64,000 nt of DNA, taken from Methanococcoides vulcani. Lineage in GTDB: Archaea > Halobacteriota > Methanosarcinia > Methanosarcinales > Methanosarcinaceae. Location of the stretch: contig NZ_FOHQ01000006.1 of assembly GCF_900111645.1 (NCBI RefSeq), positions 1-64,000 on the forward strand. The letters are read 5' to 3'. The notes beneath the pieces were generated by a model that saw nothing but the letters and a program-made list of their open reading frames with translations, was not told the origin of the DNA and made no database searches. Of this stretch, positions 22,951-31,512 are shown one piece after another (the first letter of the stretch is position 1; the number at the start of each line of letters is the position of its first letter). Position numbers and translations under genes: made by a program.

Positions 22951-23691
22951 TCAGATTATTTGACATCCATCAACAGATATTACCTGACCACTTACATAAT
23001 TCCCAAGCTCTGAGCTTAAAAATAAAACCACTTTTGCAACATCTTCCGGGTTACCACTTCGACCAAGAGCTATGTTTGATATAATTTTTTCGCGAACTTC
23101 TTCTTTAATATCTCTGGTCAGATCAGTTTCAATGAAACCTGGTGCAATAGCATTTACAGTAATTCCATATCTGCCAAGTTCTTTTGCTGCAGACTTCGTA
23201 AATCCGATTACCCCTGCTTTGCTCGCTGAATATACTGTTTGGCCAGCATTTCCATTTAACCCTATCACTGATGAGAGATTAATTATCTTTCCTGATCCTT
23301 GTTTTCTCATCATGTTTGAGGCGTATCGACTACATAGAAATGTTCCTTTTAAATTAACATCAATGGTATGATCAAATAACTCAGTACTTGTCATCGCCAA
23401 CAGATTACTTTTCAATATTCCGGCATTGTTAACAAGTATATCAAGTTTAGAGTAGTGTTTTTTAATAAAATCGAACATGTCCTTGACTTCATTCTCAACA
23501 GAAACATCTGCTTTTATCATGGTGGCTTGAAGCCCTTTCTCAGTAATGTTTTCTACAAGTTCAGCTGCTTTTTCTTCACTTTCTTTGTAGTTAATAATGA
23601 CATGTGCATGGTTCTCTGCTGCCAATAGAGCTGTAGCTCTTCCAATCCCACGGCTTGCTCCTGTGATCAGTACTACTTTATCTTTGAGCAT
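22951..23691 (-). CDS. SDR-family reductase, FabG-like
   Basis: 246 residues. It has the classical short-chain dehydrogenase set: TGASRGIG cofactor site, NNAG, catalytic Ser in NLSSV, YSASKAG with the catalytic Tyr/Lys, and the C-terminal GQVISVDGC. It is closest in pattern to 3-oxoacyl-ACP reductase FabG, which reduces a beta-keto group on a carrier-bound chain with NADPH. Methanogens do not make fatty acids by the bacterial route, so its presence last in a cluster with an acyl carrier protein is notable. It lies 70 bases after the NadE-like gene. Confidence 0.88.
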   Translation of the reverse strand: MLKDKVVLITGASRGIGRATALLAAENHAHVIINYKESEEKAAELVENITEKGLQATMIKADVSVENEVKDMFDFIKKHYSKLDILVNNAGILKSNLLAMTSTELFDHTIDVNLKGTFLCSRYASNMMRKQGSGKIINLSSVIGLNGNAGQTVYSASKAGVIGFTKSAAKELGRYGITVNAIAPGFIETDLTRDIKEEVREKIISNIALGRSGNPEDVAKVVLFLSSELGNYVSGQVISVDGCQII

Positions 23692-23761: not shown

Positions 23762-24730
23762 TCATTTGTCAAGATAACATATGGGAGGCCCGGATGTGAT
23801 GTATTTGGATGCACTTTTTATTTTGTCAATGCCTCTTTTTGCCTTGTTTATTGTTTCCTCTGACAGTTCTGTATTCTCTTCAATTATTTCCATTGGCAGG
23901 TCGTGTTCCTGTGAATATAGCAGCTGGTCCATGATATGTATCGGCATACGCCAGAAAAAGTCCTCATCAGATGTGTAGCTACTCCATGTATCGGCGCTTG
24001 GTGGCCTTTCTATTATTTCCTTATCGATGCCAAGCACATCTGCTAATGCATAGACCTGGGTCTTGTAGCAGTCTGACAGAGGTTCGATATCCACTCCTCC
24101 ATCCCCATATTTCACGAACTGCCCCAGAAGATATTCGGTCTTATTAGTGGTACCACATACAAGATAATTATTCTTTTCCGCGTATAGATACTGGATCAAC
24201 ATTCTTGATCTTTGTTTCACATTCTGGATACCGATCAGTTCGAGATAGTCCTTTGCTTTCAACCTGTTCTTTGCAACCATCTCATCATCTTTTACAAGGC
24301 TTATGGATGGAATGGTCAACATATCATTTTCTAAGAGGCTGGGCAGGACCAGTGAGGTCTTATGGATATTTGGATCATATTCCAGGCAGGTTCTCTTTAT
24401 TATCTGATCCTTTTTACCGTATATGTCAAGTGCTTGCAATATTGGGGTGATCGGGACTTCTTCATAGGAAACATCCAGTGACTCACAAAGTCTTGCTCCA
24501 AGTTCTTTGCTGCTGCTGGCTGATTCAGTTTCAGGAAGTATTAATCCGTAAACATTCTCCTTACCTACAGCCTGAACTGCCAGCGCAAGTATAACTGCAG
24601 AATCAATTCCACCTGAAACTCCTACAACAATTCCTTTTTTCTTAAAATCCTTTACTTTCTCTTCAATGAATGTCCTAATCTGAGATGCGTTCTTTTCTGC
24701 ATCTTTGTTAAGTTCATCAATTATTTTCAT
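23762..24730 (-). CDS. NadE-like ATP-dependent amidotransferase / NAD+ synthase
   Basis: 322 residues from the ATG at 24730 (GTGGGG upstream; a GTG at 24742 overlaps this). P-loop SGGIDS is at about 39-44, and the NadE signature GTTNKTEYLLGQFVKYGDGG and PLSDCYKTQV are clear. There is no glutaminase domain, so it would use free ammonia. It is longer than usual NH3-dependent NadE because of inserts around 85-150. Two functions are possible: true NAD+ synthase, or a paralogue used for amidation in the neighbouring biosynthetic cluster. Position 80 bases after the PP-loop gene favours the second, by inference only. Confidence 0.8.
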   Translation of the reverse strand: MKIIDELNKDAEKNASQIRTFIEEKVKDFKKKGIVVGVSGGIDSAVILALAVQAVGKENVYGLILPETESASSSKELGARLCESLDVSYEEVPITPILQALDIYGKKDQIIKRTCLEYDPNIHKTSLVLPSLLENDMLTIPSISLVKDDEMVAKNRLKAKDYLELIGIQNVKQRSRMLIQYLYAEKNNYLVCGTTNKTEYLLGQFVKYGDGGVDIEPLSDCYKTQVYALADVLGIDKEIIERPPSADTWSSYTSDEDFFWRMPIHIMDQLLYSQEHDLPMEIIEENTELSEETINKAKRGIDKIKSASKYITSGPPICYLDK

Positions 24731-24810
24731 AATATACCCCACTGGAATAATTTGTATTGTGTGATGTTTTCTGGTTTAGAATATTGATACGTCCCCATTT
24801 GTATGGAAGT

Positions 24811-25824
24811 TTATTCCAGGTCCATTTCAAGTTTCTTTGCAGCCATTTCTATCAATGGCTCTGACAATTCTTTATGCAATTTCTCCAATCCTTCTTCCCG
24901 GGTCATATCCCCGCTTCTCACAAGGCCTGCTATGTCGAAAGCGTATGGATGGATGTCATATTTATTGATATGATTCTGACAGGCAAATGCATTTAAAAGG
25001 CAGTTTGTTGAATTACTGTCATTGATCTTTGGAGGCATCCATCCGAGGTCTATCAGTGTCTCCACTATCTTATCTTCATTGTAATCCCAGAGGCACATTG
25101 GGTGTAACATAATTGGAGTGGTGTCTTTGTTTATGCTTTTTATGATCTCATTTTTTAAAAGGAAACTCTCATCCTTGTCATCTACACCGATATTTTGAAG
25201 CTGCTTCTCAAAAATATCTCGGGACCATTTTATGAAATTGACTTGGAGGTCAATTATAGGATTAGGGGCTTGTCCGGATGTAAATGCAAAAACAATGAAT
25301 GGTGCTTTATGAATAATTGCCTGTTCTACCAATTTCTGCTTGATGATGCTAATGCATGTGTTGCAGATGTCACTGGCTCGATATCTGGCAAATTTTGAGT
25401 ATGCGTTGGTAGATTCAGCTGCTTTTCGAAATGTATCACAAAGTAGTTTTTCTTCCATGGTCAGCTTAAAATAATCGCAGCCCACGATCTCACACATCTT
25501 TTTTGCATTAGCAACAGCAGTGTCTGAAATGAAGGCATTATCAAATTGAACTGCAAGGATATTCAGGAATGGGTACTCTTTTTTAAGTTTATAGAGTCCA
25601 TATGAAGAGTCTTTTCCGCCGGAAAGTGCAAAAATAACATCATATTCTCCTTTTCCGCTGCGTTCTTTAAGCAGGTCTTCTATAATTCCCAAATATTTCT
25701 TCTTTTCTTCTGAAGACATGGGTGTGTAGTTCTCACAGAACTGGCAAAGGCCACTTTCCTCGTTTATTGTTATACCAGGAATGTCTGAATCTAAAATACA
25801 TTTCTTACATGTTAGCTTTGACAT
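24811..25824 (-). CDS. Zinc-ribbon PP-loop ATPase, amidotransferase-like
   Basis: 337 residues. An N-terminal four-cysteine ribbon (C6, C9, C27, C30) precedes a PP-loop SGGKDS at 68-73, the adenylating fold of the N-acetyl-sugar amidotransferase (WbpG/WbuX-like) and ExsB group. A further cysteine pair is seen in SDICNTCIS. Such enzymes adenylate a carbonyl or carboxylate and replace the oxygen with nitrogen or sulfur. The substrate is unknown. Its start overlaps the AMP-ligase gene by 20 bases. No HisH/HisF-type glutaminase partner is nearby, unlike in WbpG systems. Confidence 0.78.
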   Translation of the reverse strand: MSKLTCKKCILDSDIPGITINEESGLCQFCENYTPMSSEEKKKYLGIIEDLLKERSGKGEYDVIFALSGGKDSSYGLYKLKKEYPFLNILAVQFDNAFISDTAVANAKKMCEIVGCDYFKLTMEEKLLCDTFRKAAESTNAYSKFARYRASDICNTCISIIKQKLVEQAIIHKAPFIVFAFTSGQAPNPIIDLQVNFIKWSRDIFEKQLQNIGVDDKDESFLLKNEIIKSINKDTTPIMLHPMCLWDYNEDKIVETLIDLGWMPPKINDSNSTNCLLNAFACQNHINKYDIHPYAFDIAGLVRSGDMTREEGLEKLHKELSEPLIEMAAKKLEMDLE

Positions 25825-27283
25825 TTTGATACTCCTCTATTATAGACCTGTTAGATATTTTTCCACTTTTACTTAGTGGCAAGTTCTCGATAAGAATTAT
25901 TTCCAGTGGACACAGGAAGCCAGGCAAATTCTTCCTACAAAATGTATATAATGTTTCAACTTCTGTATCCTGAGTTGGAATTACCATCAGGCTGATGGCA
26001 TTTCCCAGGTACTCATGATCAACTGGGACGACGAATACATCTGAAACTTCATTATTTTTGCCAATATATTTTTCCACTTCTCTTGGATTTACACGATGAT
26101 CAGCAACTTTGATCAGGTCATCCTTGCGACCTAACAACTTAAAGTAACCATTTGGTAACTTTTGTGCCAGATCGCCGGTATACATCCAATCATTTACTAT
26201 TTTTTTGCGGGTAGCTTCCTCATCGTTAAGGTAGCCTATCAGTATGTTTTTCCCTCTGGCAATTAATTCTCCTGTAATACCGGATGCAACTGGTTTTTTA
26301 CTATCATCAACTACATCAAGTTCAACTCCTGGAATCGGTTTACCTATTGTATCAGGGTATTTTTCCAGGTCTGCTGATGGAAGATAGGAAAGTCTTGCTG
26401 TTGCTTCTGTTTGTCCATACATTGGGATTATCTCTATCCTGTCATTCAACTGCTTGATCTTTTCTACAATTTCTACTTCCATAGCACCGCCTGCAGATGC
26501 AGCAAGTCTGACGTTCCTGAATGATCTCTGGAAGCTAGAAGGATATTTGAGAAGAATACGATAAGTGCTTGGAACTCCATAAAATATAGTTACTCCCGAT
26601 TCTACAAGTTTAAAGGTTGATTCGAGGAAAGTAAGACCGCCGATTTTGATAGATCCTCCTGCAACCAACTGGGAATTAATGATCGAATTTCCAAAAGCAT
26701 GGTGTGGAGATATTACTTGTGCAGCTTTGTCTTTTGGTGTTATGCTCAATACCTCTATTATGGAATTTGCATTTGTTATTAGATTTTCATCACTCAGCAT
26801 GACACCTTTTGGAGCTCCTGTAGTCCCGGATGTGTACATTACGAGCCTTAATAAATCATTATTATTCTCACGAATGATCTCTTTACGTAAAGTCTTCACA
26901 GAGGAATCCTTTGAAATATAGATCACAGTAGTGAATCCTTCAAAGAAAGCATTTCCAAATCTCGAATATTGCTGATCTGTGACAATAATACTATTTATCT
27001 GGTTGCTATCTAGTATCTGTCTTATATTGGATTCTGTCAGTTCCACCGGGAGAGGTACGGCGATATTATCCGATCGGTAGACTGCCATTAGGGCCTGAAT
27101 ATATTCTATACCTGATTCGGCAAAGATCGCAAATTTGCAATGATTGAAATCATCTATTTCTGCTGTTATAGCGTTTATAGCTTCATCAAGAAGACTATAA
27201 GAAATTGATTTGTCTTTCTCTTCCAGTGCAGTTTTTTGAGGAGTTTCTTTAGCATGTTTTGCAATATATTCATCAATTCTCAT
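25805..27283 (-). CDS. AMP-forming acyl/aminoacyl ligase (ANL superfamily)
   Basis: 492 residues. It has the adenylation-domain motifs in order: YTSGTTGAPKG at 150-160, VPSTYR, MYGQTEATAR, YTGDLA, LLGRKDDLIKVADHRVNP and the C-terminal lysine in LSKSGKIS. It should activate a carboxylic acid as the adenylate and load it on a thiol. With an acyl carrier protein gene four bases upstream, the carrier is the likely acceptor rather than CoA. The substrate pocket cannot be read by eye. It is the second gene of the minus-strand operon. Confidence 0.9.
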   Translation of the reverse strand: MRIDEYIAKHAKETPQKTALEEKDKSISYSLLDEAINAITAEIDDFNHCKFAIFAESGIEYIQALMAVYRSDNIAVPLPVELTESNIRQILDSNQINSIIVTDQQYSRFGNAFFEGFTTVIYISKDSSVKTLRKEIIRENNNDLLRLVMYTSGTTGAPKGVMLSDENLITNANSIIEVLSITPKDKAAQVISPHHAFGNSIINSQLVAGGSIKIGGLTFLESTFKLVESGVTIFYGVPSTYRILLKYPSSFQRSFRNVRLAASAGGAMEVEIVEKIKQLNDRIEIIPMYGQTEATARLSYLPSADLEKYPDTIGKPIPGVELDVVDDSKKPVASGITGELIARGKNILIGYLNDEEATRKKIVNDWMYTGDLAQKLPNGYFKLLGRKDDLIKVADHRVNPREVEKYIGKNNEVSDVFVVPVDHEYLGNAISLMVIPTQDTEVETLYTFCRKNLPGFLCPLEIILIENLPLSKSGKISNRSIIEEYQNVKANM

Positions 27284-27287
27284 GGCA

Positions 27288-27533
27288 TCACTTTGTTAAT
27301 TTTTGGATAACATTTACAATTCCACTGATGGAATCAAAATTTTCAGGAGTTAATAGTTCTTCAGGAATCTCTATGGAATATTTTTCACAAATAAAATCTA
27401 TAAATTCGATCAATCCAATTGAATCGATGATTCCTTTCATTGTTAAAGAATCATCATCATTTAATTGTGTACCACTGTCCATAAACGATTTATTTTGCAA
27501 ATATGCCATTATATCTTCTTTAATTTCTTCCAT
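27288..27533 (-). CDS. Acyl (or peptidyl) carrier protein
   Basis: 81 residues from the ATG at 27533, with GTGGGT eight bases upstream. It is acidic and helical, with the phosphopantetheine serine Ser38 in GIIDSIGLIEFIDF (DSxG motif) and ICEKYSIEIPEEL in helix III. It must be modified by a phosphopantetheinyl transferase, and a gene for one lies 290 bases upstream. Free carrier proteins are rare in methanogens. It is the first gene of the operon with the ligase, PP-loop, NadE-like and FabG-like genes. Confidence 0.88.
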   Translation of the reverse strand: MEEIKEDIMAYLQNKSFMDSGTQLNDDDSLTMKGIIDSIGLIEFIDFICEKYSIEIPEELLTPENFDSISGIVNVIQKLTK

Positions 27534-27821
27534 GTTTGTCAACCCACTCAAATTATTTATTATTTAAATTGCATAATAATGCAACATTGATTCAACAAAG
27601 CCATGTAGTATAAGCATAAGGAATACTCTATGCTTCATAGCTGTTTGAACTACTTCCCCATAAACAAAATAACTTCAATCGTATATAAGATGTTCTTATG
27701 GCAAACAATTTCTTCTATCTGCCAATGATTTATCTCTAATATTTCAATTAGGTAGTTATTTATCCAAATTTATCTATTTGATATCTAAAAATTATATATA
27801 CTTTAGGAGTAGTTTCGCCAT

Positions 27822-28505
27822 TTAAAGGGGAATACTCTTTTGGAGATAGCATATATTGATCTTGTTATTTTTTGAAGCAAAAGCGACAGATAGTACATAT
27901 CTGTTATTTATAACAAGCTCTTGATGATCGATATCATTGAGGTCAATTTCTTTATTCAAACATGCTAGCATACTCTGATCTGTCAGTTTACAATATGCTT
28001 CTCTCAATGTCCAATTTTTTAGCGTATCAACATTATCTTTTTGAAGCATATCTCTTTTAGATTTTGTATTCCGCAAAAATTTCGAAACATTCTCTAAAAC
28101 TATTGGTCTGATGTACTCAATATCAATTCCTGTTTTCGTTTTTGATATTGAAATAGCAGCAAGACTGTCGGTGTATGAGATGCAGATATAAATATCGTCA
28201 TGTTTGTGTACGCACACACGCCCCGTATTATTTCGATAGAGGGATACGTCTAATGATGATCTTTTTTTAAGGATATGCTAAAGAATAAATTTCAGGAACG
28301 ACCGAGATGCAATGAACCTTTTTCTAAAATAATTTGTTTTTAGTGTGTTTAGATATTCTTTTTCATCGCTGCTTAGATCTGATAACTCTAATTGTTCATC
28401 CATTTCCAGATCAATCAAAAAAATAAGAGCATCGTTCTTATTCCATAATTTATAGATTGATAAAGAGGATGGAGGAGTTAACGATTCTAATACTTTAATA
28501 ACCAT
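27822..28505 (-). CDS. Sfp-type 4'-phosphopantetheinyl transferase interrupted by an in-frame TAG
   Basis: ATG at 28505 (AAAGGTT six bases upstream) to TAA at 27822: 228 codons in one frame with a single TAG at 28278-28280 (codon 76). Before it, SDEKEYLNTLKTNYFRKRF and IASRSFLKFIL match the N-half of this family. After it, HILKKRSSLDVSLYRNNTG, GIDIEYIRP (Mg-binding D/E) and NWTLREAYCKL (W..(K/R)EA..K) give the rest. The total of 227 residues is the usual length. The enzyme would transfer phosphopantetheine from CoA to the carrier protein at 27288. TAG may be decoded as pyrrolysine, read through at low level, or be a nonsense mutation. If TAG stops translation only a useless 75-residue piece is made. 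Confidence 0.75.
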
Positions 28506-28805: not shown

Positions 28806-29446
28806 TTACTGTTCATCACGATCAATAATGTAATCGTCGGATAGGGTTAACCTTTCTGATTCTACTGTATAAACAGTAACATACACAAAAGCTGTTCCAT
28901 TTGTTATACTATTATTAATCTCTGTTTGGTATGTGTATACATTATCTTCGATCTCTGGACCGGATAGCATTATGTATGTATCATCTCTTCTAACCCTGAT
29001 TTGTGTTTCATATCTTAATGCAACAGAAGCTATCACTCTTATTTCTATGTCGCCATTTGTTTCTTTTTCAGAAAGTTCCACTCTTAGATCATCTAATGAT
29101 GTATCTACATAGAATTGACCTATTATAGTCTTGTAGTTGTAGGCAAGGTCGGTAGTTGTGACTTCTACTTTGTGGCTTTTGTCAGTTTCAGGTGTGAGAT
29201 ACCAAACCAGTCAATTCCATCATCAGAGGACATATCAATACCGACTTTCTGGTATTGGAAATTCTGGTCATTTGGTGCTATTAAGCAGTTAATATCTCTC
29301 AATGCTTCTTCTGCTTTGAAGGTTACTAATATTGATCCACTTGAAGGAGTTGGGAATATATCAATGGTGAACTACGGATCTGTTATGTCTACAGTTGTTT
29401 TGGTATCAGGAGCATCATGGAAAGATTCCCAGTTTCCAGTTGCATC
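28806..29446 (-). pseudogene. Decayed surface-protein gene fragment
   Basis: On the minus strand a continuous protein sequence can be followed only by crossing lesions. From ~29446 one frame reads RDATGNWESFHDAPD, then KTTVDITDP, TAG at 29372-29374, then FTIDIFPTPSSGS through GIDWFGIS. At about 29195 the reading shifts by one base to TPETDKSHKVEVTTTDLA and continues to TAA at 28806. The upstream end is closed by TAA just before RDATGNW. There is no start codon or signal peptide. The repeating beta-strand style and the neighbouring cohesin genes suggest a former extracellular protein. Because a frameshift accompanies the TAG, this is decay and not recoding. Confidence 0.65.
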
Positions 29447-29652
29447 TCTTTATATTTTTTATAATTTTTATTCATTGTTATTATATAGGTCAGGTATAAA
29501 TGTCTCATAATAATGATTGTAATGACTTTTTTGTTTTTTTCACAATGTATTTATAGCACCAGTACCATTTGGAATATGGGGATTTTGAATTTTGGTGATT
29601 AGAATCAAGTCAGCGCAACTCATCAAATGCATTTCAAAATAAAGGAAAAAAC

Positions 29653-30309
29653 ATGTCTAGCATAAAAAAGATCTTGATAGTAGCAACTATAATCACATTG
29701 CTGGTAGGTCTAACTAACGTTTCTGCAGCTGCTTCAGATGTAACTTTAAAGCCATCATCACAGACCATTGCACCGGGTGAAACTTTCACAGTCGAAATCT
29801 TTGTTTCTCCTGATGTTGATATTGCAGGAATCCAGTTCGATCTGCTTTTTGATAGTTCTCAGTTCCAGGTATCAGATGTGAGTGAAGGAAGCTTGTTCAA
29901 GCAAAGTGGTATGGATACATTTTTTGTTTCAGGTTCTGTAAATTCAGGTTTACTAAATGACGCATATGGTTGCATTCTCGGTGCTTCAGATGTCGCAACA
30001 CCAGCAACTTTTGCTATCATCACGTTAACAGCAACTGAACAGGCAAATGGAAGATCAGAGTTAGTCCTGAAAGATGTTATAATCAGTGATCCAGAAGGTA
30101 ATTCTGTAGATCTCGAATTAACAAATACAGTGATCTCAGTCCTGATCTTTGATATAAACCAGGATAATGTGGTTGACTTTGGTGATTATGGTCTAGTTGA
30201 ACAGCATTTCGATGAAACCACCTCATATCCTTATCCTCTATGGGATGTAAATCAGGATAATATTGTAAATGTCCTTGATATGATGTTGGTACTGTCGCAT
30301 ATGGACTGA
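29653..30309 (+). CDS. Exported cohesin-dockerin protein
   Basis: 218 residues. A signal peptide (about 1-26, ending SAAAS) is followed by a cohesin-type beta-sandwich (about 28-165: VTLKPSSQTIAPGETFTVEI, IAGIQFDLLFDSS, and LTATEQANGRSEL). A C-terminal type-I dockerin follows with two calcium-loop repeats (DINQDNVVDFGDYG and DVNQDNIVNVLDMM). Cohesins bind dockerins, so the protein could link to partners or to itself outside the cell. AAAGGAAAAA precedes the ATG. It lies 18 bases upstream of another cohesin gene, so they form a two-gene operon. Confidence 0.87.
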   Translation: MSSIKKILIVATIITLLVGLTNVSAAASDVTLKPSSQTIAPGETFTVEIFVSPDVDIAGIQFDLLFDSSQFQVSDVSEGSLFKQSGMDTFFVSGSVNSGLLNDAYGCILGASDVATPATFAIITLTATEQANGRSELVLKDVIISDPEGNSVDLELTNTVISVLIFDINQDNVVDFGDYGLVEQHFDETTSYPYPLWDVNQDNIVNVLDMMLVLSHMD

Positions 30310-30327
30310 TAATGGTAAGGTGTCCCG

Positions 30328-31512
30328 ATGGAAAAGTATATTTTCATCTCTGGAAAAAGTAAATTTTATTCCTTACTATTTTTTTCTTTGTTTACTATTA
30401 CTTGCCTTAGTGGAATTGCCAGTGCCAGTACGACCATCAGCATCATACCCACCTCTCAATCAGTAGAGGAAGGGCAGAACTTTGCTGTGAGTTTCTATTT
30501 GGATCCGGACCGTCCGGTTGCTGGTATCCAGTTCGACTTGTCTTATGACAGTGAACTTGTCAAGGTTGTTCAGGTCTCAGAAGGTGAATTCTTAAGGCAG
30601 GATGGTGCTCTTGTCTGGTTCAATCCAGGTCAGATCGAAAGCTCAAATGGGAGAATTGATTCTGTGTATGGCCTGATATTGGACAAGACAAGCGTTACAG
30701 AACCGGAAGATTTTGTTGTCATCCATATGAAGGCTGGCAATGTATCAGGTATAAGTTCTCTGGAACTCTCTAATGTTGTAGTTAGTGATACTCAAGGGCA
30801 GATCATACCGATAGATGTTGTTAATGGATCAGTTACTATCGTATCTGATACAGCTTCATCTACTAAATCTAAGACCAGTGACAAGGATGATTATGGAGCT
30901 GGCGGAATTAGCACCACAAGCGGATCCTATGAGGAATTTGAGATCATAGAGAAATCCAGCCGGTCTGTGTATCTTGGTTCTCAGGTTTCCTATCAGTTCG
31001 ATAAGCCTGAAAATCCCATTATGTACATCAACTACGAATCTCTCACAAATGCCGGCAATGTTGTAGCAACAATTGAAGTCCTTAAGCAGACATCTCTTCT
31101 CGTTTCATCACCTCCTCCCGGTATTGTCTACAAAGATGTGAATATCTGGTTGGGTAAACCCGGTTATAGCACTGAGAGCAATATGAAGGATGCAGTTATT
31201 GGATTCCGGGTAGACCGATCCTGGCTTGAAGAGAACCAGATATCTGATAGCTCTGTAATGATGTATCGCTATGATCAGGACCTGTGGGTACCCCTTTCAA
31301 CAAAGAAGATCAATGAGAGCAGCAGCGATGTGAGCTTTGAAGCAGAAACTTCTGGTTTTTCACCTTTTGCGATAGTGGGTGAAAGCTCCGATGATATAAC
31401 CGGAAAAACAGAGGTTGATGATACTCCTGCAGAGGATGAAAGTCTTGATCAGAATGCAGCTTTTATTTTGTGTCTATCGATGTTACTACTCCTATTTGCC
31501 AGAAGGCATTAA
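30328..31512 (+). CDS. Cohesin and PGF-pre-PGF domain surface protein
   Basis: 394 residues. A signal peptide (ending GIASAS near 34) precedes a cohesin domain (about 36-175: ISIIPTSQSVEEGQNFAV, VAGIQFDLSYDSELVKV). A low-complexity Ser/Thr/Asp linker (about 178-215) leads to the PGF-pre-PGF domain (about 245-350: GFRVDRSWLEENQI, YRYDQDLWVPL, SGFSPFAIVG) and a C-terminal hydrophobic helix with terminal RRH. That end resembles archaeal surface sorting/anchoring tails, although no PGF triplet is seen. It is probably held at the membrane and could capture the dockerin protein encoded just upstream. Confidence 0.85.
   Translation: MEKYIFISGKSKFYSLLFFSLFTITCLSGIASASTTISIIPTSQSVEEGQNFAVSFYLDPDRPVAGIQFDLSYDSELVKVVQVSEGEFLRQDGALVWFNPGQIESSNGRIDSVYGLILDKTSVTEPEDFVVIHMKAGNVSGISSLELSNVVVSDTQGQIIPIDVVNGSVTIVSDTASSTKSKTSDKDDYGAGGISTTSGSYEEFEIIEKSSRSVYLGSQVSYQFDKPENPIMYINYESLTNAGNVVATIEVLKQTSLLVSSPPPGIVYKDVNIWLGKPGYSTESNMKDAVIGFRVDRSWLEENQISDSSVMMYRYDQDLWVPLSTKKINESSSDVSFEAETSGFSPFAIVGESSDDITGKTEVDDTPAEDESLDQNAAFILCLSMLLLLFARRH

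Follow-up and report, generated by a model that had tools for sequence, protein, structure and literature searches.

A carrier-protein locus headed by a phosphopantetheinyl transferase gene with an in-frame TAG

The window analysed here is a 64,000-nt stretch of DNA, bases 1–64000 of contig 12 of a 2.31 Mb genome (G000). Among named records, those of Methanococcoides come nearest to a gene neighbouring the PPTase, a helicase gene, at 87%. From 28505 to 27822 on the minus strand, the window carries a gene for an Sfp-type phosphopantetheinyl transferase (PPTase), which is open in a single frame apart from one TAG and contains no frameshift. The features of the locus are:

27822..28505, minus strand: Sfp-type 4′-phosphopantetheinyl transferase, 227 residues including the TAG-encoded residue 76 (PF01648; Sfp profile and fold matches)
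28278..28280, minus strand: in-frame TAG, codon 76 of the PPTase, putative pyrrolysine codon (same TAG in G019 and G021; CAG, Gln, in three sister species)
27824-27822, minus strand: TAA stop codon of the PPTase (translation)
27288..27551, minus strand: acyl/peptidyl carrier protein with a DSIG phosphopantetheine site (PF00550, E 0.0036, below the Pfam cut-off; several NCBIfam ACP models, also below cut-off; synteny)
25805..27283, minus strand: AMP-forming ligase (PF00501, E 3.5e-56; synteny)
24811..25824, minus strand: PP-loop amidotransferase, WbuX-related (TIGR03573, 102 bits, below the cut-off of 203; synteny)
23762..24742, minus strand: NAD synthase-like protein, NF002048 subfamily (441 bits, cut-off 313; synteny)
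22951..23691, minus strand: FabG-like short-chain dehydrogenase (PF13561, E 2.1e-67; synteny)

The original prediction of 228 codons in one frame with a single TAG is borne out, the gene encoding 227 residues followed by TAA. With the TAG read as a residue, the product scores 27.5 bits against PF01648 (ACPS; Pfam gathering cut-off 25) and matches Sfp (1qr0) in a profile search with an E-value of 1.7e-8. Its AlphaFold model (pLDDT 80.7) adopts the two-half Sfp fold of ~225 residues. The best PDB match of this predicted model, found with Foldseek, is Sfp 4mrt (E 6.4e-11, TM 0.65), with an alignment of 219 columns that includes codon 76. In addition, 27 orthologues share without exception residues G126, D128, E130, W165, E169 and K173, which belong to the metal-binding motifs GxDxE and W-x-x-(K/R)-E-A-x-x-K. 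All of these residues are encoded 3′ of the TAG; a product ending at residue 75 would lack them and could not be active. The PPTase shares its fold and its GIDIE and WTLREAYCK motifs with the Sfp/HetI-type PPTases (1qr0, 4mrt; NF042922), from which it differs in being ~16% identical to Sfp, in scoring under the equivalog cut-offs and in having a candidate pyrrolysine codon.

The six-gene order, with the PPTase first, is kept in 8 of 12 relatives compared over 20 kb around the PPTase gene. Two relatives outside the genus have the locus complete except for the FabG-like reductase, while in G022 and G024 the PPTase is the only one of the six genes seen. The PPTase is the fastest-evolving member of the locus, at ~43% identity to distant relatives compared with 60–75% for its neighbours; its family score is weak, and selection may constrain it less than the neighbouring genes. 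Because it is the sole PF01648 match in the genome, it most likely activates the adjacent carrier protein, its predicted substrate. Loading of the carrier protein probably falls to the AMP-forming ligase, and the enzyme families of the locus suggest that an acyl or aminoacyl group is borne on the carrier protein and then amidated.

Upstream of the PPTase, 28806-29510 of the window (minus strand) contains short frames only; one of them, of 91 residues, has no Pfam match, and the region may be a decayed gene. Farther upstream, at 29653-31512 (plus strand), lies a gene for a cohesin-plus-dockerin protein adjoining that of a cohesin protein, which is kept beside the PPTase in several relatives.

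A probable single origin of the TAG at codon 76

A search of 112 genomes across the family found the PPTase gene in 51. The original prediction had called for orthologues with the same TAG or a sense codon, and both occur: the TAG lies exactly at codon 76 in two other species, G019 (89% identity) and G021 (84%), and CAG (Gln) occupies this codon in three more, G025 (81% identity), G018 and G020. The TAG is thus not a lone one amid orthologues that all carry sense codons, and a sequencing error at 28278-28280 is rejected because the TAG is common to three genomes. In a tree built from 9 kb of neighbouring genes, the three TAG species form one clade with a support of 1.0, so a single CAG-to-TAG transition explains the TAGs at codon 76. 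This implies one gain, retained across two speciations.

A second TAG is present in the PPTase gene of G016 and G023, at the position of Ser211, which is TCG in their relatives; the same gene therefore gained a TAG twice. Altogether, 5 of the 10 Methanococcoides members having the gene carry a TAG in it, at two separate sites, and no TAG was found in any orthologue outside Methanococcoides in the family-wide search. One relative of the genus, G017, has no PPTase match. A contig scan with the PPTase as query found no relative, and the named Methanococcoides contigs matched through the neighbouring helicase have no PPTase beside the helicase. Short, decayed PPTase-type fragments with stops are present at G024:C4:83021-83173 and G022:C74:589-753; both adjoin matches of a GNAT-like gene, and both genomes hold another, intact PPTase.

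In the AlphaFold model, residue 76 is located in the last turns of a well-predicted helix (residues 58–78). Column 76 is variable among orthologues (C, R, Q, Y or S), making a long side chain plausible without any special function. This supports the earlier proposal that the residue falls in a helix-turn region off the metal site, where a large side chain might be tolerated: the position is a helix end and lies outside the metal-site motifs.

Purifying selection beyond the TAG

The dN/dS values 3′ of the TAG in pairs of TAG-bearing genes are 0.18, 0.24 and 0.26, compared with 0.19–0.44 on the 5′ side; these are simple pairwise estimates from pairs that share branches and are not independent, but all point in the same direction. 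Genes bearing CAG give values similar to those of the TAG–TAG pairs. For the 20 codons from the TAG to the first possible restart (codons 77–96), dN/dS is 0.19, 0.23 and 0.06, noisy values from a short stretch. Furthermore, amino-acid changes past the TAG are fewer than in neutral simulation in every pair: 17 versus 26.9 (P = 0.0005), 21 versus 31.8 (P < 0.00025) and 19 versus 26.0 (P = 0.006). As judged from these sequence comparisons, the part of the PPTase beyond the TAG is under purifying selection.

Pyrrolysine machinery and UAG usage

The full pylTSBCD cassette, whose presence the original prediction had asked to be confirmed, is found in the genome: there is a tRNA-Pyl with anticodon CUA, and pylS, pylB, pylC and pylD are clustered and all score over their NCBIfam cut-offs. 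The genome also has MtmB-family and MTTB-family genes with internal TAGs, and pylS is present in 10/10 other Methanococcoides genomes. No stable PYLIS-like stem folds 3′ of the PPTase TAG (z = +1.40), and such a stem is not considered to be required for UAG decoding (PMC8211752).

We counted stop codons in samples of the two genomes, 459 kb of G000 and ~0.42 Mb of G021. The 311 coding frames of G000 end in TGA (170), TAA (136) or TAG (5); TAG thus makes up 1.6% of gene ends, although it accounts for 18% of the stop trimers that the DNA contains. The five TAG-ended frames comprise one interrupted histidine kinase, two with a TGA one codon on, pylB, and one apparent false frame. Similarly, 4 of 280 genes in G021 end at TAG, namely three interrupted genes (the same kinase, a subtilase-family gene and a CcmF-like gene) and pylB. 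The rarity of terminal TAG in these samples, together with several TAG-interrupted genes, suggests that UAG is mostly a sense codon in this genome. Apart from the kinase, the TAG-containing genes singled out are:

L097:11710-13404, minus strand: subtilase-family protein of G021, TAG-interrupted, with a 752-codon coding-like extension (stop-usage sample)
L099:4245-4787, minus strand: CcmF-like protein of G021, TAG-interrupted, with a 150-codon coding-like extension (stop-usage sample)
L066:9337-10464, minus strand: GNAT-like gene, TAG at codon 123 in G000 only, AAG or GAG in the relatives aligned (alignment)
L073:9488-10006, plus strand: MarR-family regulator, TAG at codon 59 inside the MarR domain span (codon-usage screen)
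L068:9794-10906, minus strand: pylB, TAG end, with a 42-codon non-coding-like extension overlapping pylC; likewise in G021

The codon-usage screen for interrupted genes fails to detect those that are AT-rich, this PPTase among them, and some of its entries are antisense artefacts. The GNAT-like gene is an ordinary drift-type pyrrolysine candidate. The TAG end of pylB, also known in M. mazei, M. acetivorans and M. burtonii (PMC2933860), means that UAG may sometimes terminate; an amber reporter in M. acetivorans, as cited in the same paper, gave mainly terminated product.

The histidine kinase at G000:C12:67521-70193 (plus strand; L167) has a 7TM-PAS-GAF-HisKA-HATPase_c architecture and an in-frame TAG at codon 803, inside the ATPase domain. 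Exactly one TAG is present in each of its best 20 matches, from 11 Methanococcoides genomes and including paralogues at 56–64% identity, and it occupies the same ATPase-domain position in 12/12 loci read (including relatives L168–L178). The next matches, other kinases and those from other genera, lack the TAG almost without exception. A pyrrolysine seems to have been kept in the kinase, perhaps by selection. One paper names a histidine kinase of M. acetivorans, M. mahii and M. barkeri, with an in-frame UAG, as a candidate for selection of a less neutral kind (PMC3639795).

Proposed decoding of the PPTase TAG

Residue 76 of the PPTase is very probably pyrrolysine, acquired through a near-neutral codon change. 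The TAG in three species, the purifying selection past it, the pyl cassette, the near absence of TAG as a terminator and the tolerant helix site together give good support to the original prediction that the TAG is read as pyrrolysine. In the proposed mechanism, UAG codon 76 would be decoded by tRNA-Pyl charged by PylS, placing pyrrolysine at residue 76 of the cell's Sfp-type PPTase, which would be synthesised as a single 227-residue chain. The CAG-to-TAG transition would have occurred once, in the ancestor shared by the three Methanococcoides species that carry this TAG, and would have been near-neutral because the site is variable and at a helix end and because UAG is hardly a terminator in the lineage. 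The PPTase would then modify the carrier protein encoded next to it, at its Ser. We infer the identity of the inserted residue, the efficiency of its insertion and the carrier protein as substrate.

The same genes also bear on readings in which the TAG ends or divides the protein, or is decoded by something other than tRNA-Pyl. That the TAG truncates a PPTase no longer needed is highly unlikely: G017 has no match and G022 and G024 contain short fragments with stops, but those fragments show how a decaying PPTase would look, whereas here every TAG pair has a dN/dS well under 1 beyond the TAG, there is no frameshift or second stop, and the other genes of the locus are intact. On these grounds, decay is rejected. 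A split enzyme, in which fragment 1–75 associates with a C-terminal fragment restarted at GTG codon 97, could draw on the GGGG just 5′ of that codon; it is extremely improbable, and was rejected, because codons 77–96, which would lie outside both fragments, are conserved (dN/dS 0.06–0.23), and the same GTG in the CAG species G025 argues against adaptation to the TAG. Reading of the UAG by a near-cognate standard tRNA (e.g., Gln or Lys), or leaky termination, would fit the ancestral Gln at codon 76, but a dedicated tRNA-Pyl(CUA) with a whole pyl cassette, and TAG-containing methyltransferase genes of known Pyl families in the same genome, leave it little probability.

A different role for pyrrolysine would be a regulatory switch, in which UAG decoding gates the sole PPTase (with TAG in five species), and with it the holo-carrier protein and the six-gene pathway, by pyrrolysine supply, tied to methylamine use. 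If this were true, production of pyrrolysine would be a precondition for the pathway to operate, and one codon would serve as a metabolic switch. With one PPTase found in the genome, dependence of its function on pyrrolysine supply follows logically, and two independent gains in the genus, one from CAG and one from TCG, would also fit. However, the TAG is present in only half of the gene-bearing members and at two different sites, sister species have Gln in a variable column, and orthologues outside Methanococcoides have no TAG, so that a switch is improbable. The link to methylamine growth in the original prediction is accordingly unsupported, and the scattered pattern across genomes is more like tolerated drift than like a switch under conservation.

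Comparison with known pyrrolysine proteins

The pyrrolysine of MtmB, MtbB and MttB is catalytic and conserved. These proteins share with the PPTase the in-frame reading of UAG, with the same machinery in this genome; in contrast, column 76 of the PPTase is variable and holds Gln in sister species. Kivenson et al. are said to have described, in Science in 2025, 'Pyl code' archaea in which UAG is generally sense. Rare terminal TAG, TAG within several unrelated genes and backup stops are also found here, although our counts come from sampled DNA, and pylB still ends in TAG.

A closer parallel is Thg1, the tRNA-His guanylyltransferase of M. acetivorans, which contains pyrrolysine that has been physically seen (Heinemann et al. 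2009, cited in PMC2933860 and PMC8211752). In both Thg1, as these citing papers relate, and the PPTase, an in-frame amber codon lies in a gene other than a methyltransferase, homologues have a sense codon, and neutral evolution is the explanation offered. The Thg1 amber is there reported in one species, whereas the PPTase TAG is found in three, with measurable selection past it; conversely, pyrrolysine in Thg1 was seen physically, whereas that of the PPTase is predicted from sequence.

Outside the methylamine methyltransferases, the PPTase is thus a clear example of TAG read-through for which selection in several species, and not a single genome, provides the evidence. The example favours the view that UAG is mostly a sense codon in Methanococcoides, with the result that real genes are broken up or missed by automatic annotation, and it would make an ordinary PPTase, and the pathway that it should activate, pyrrolysine-dependent.
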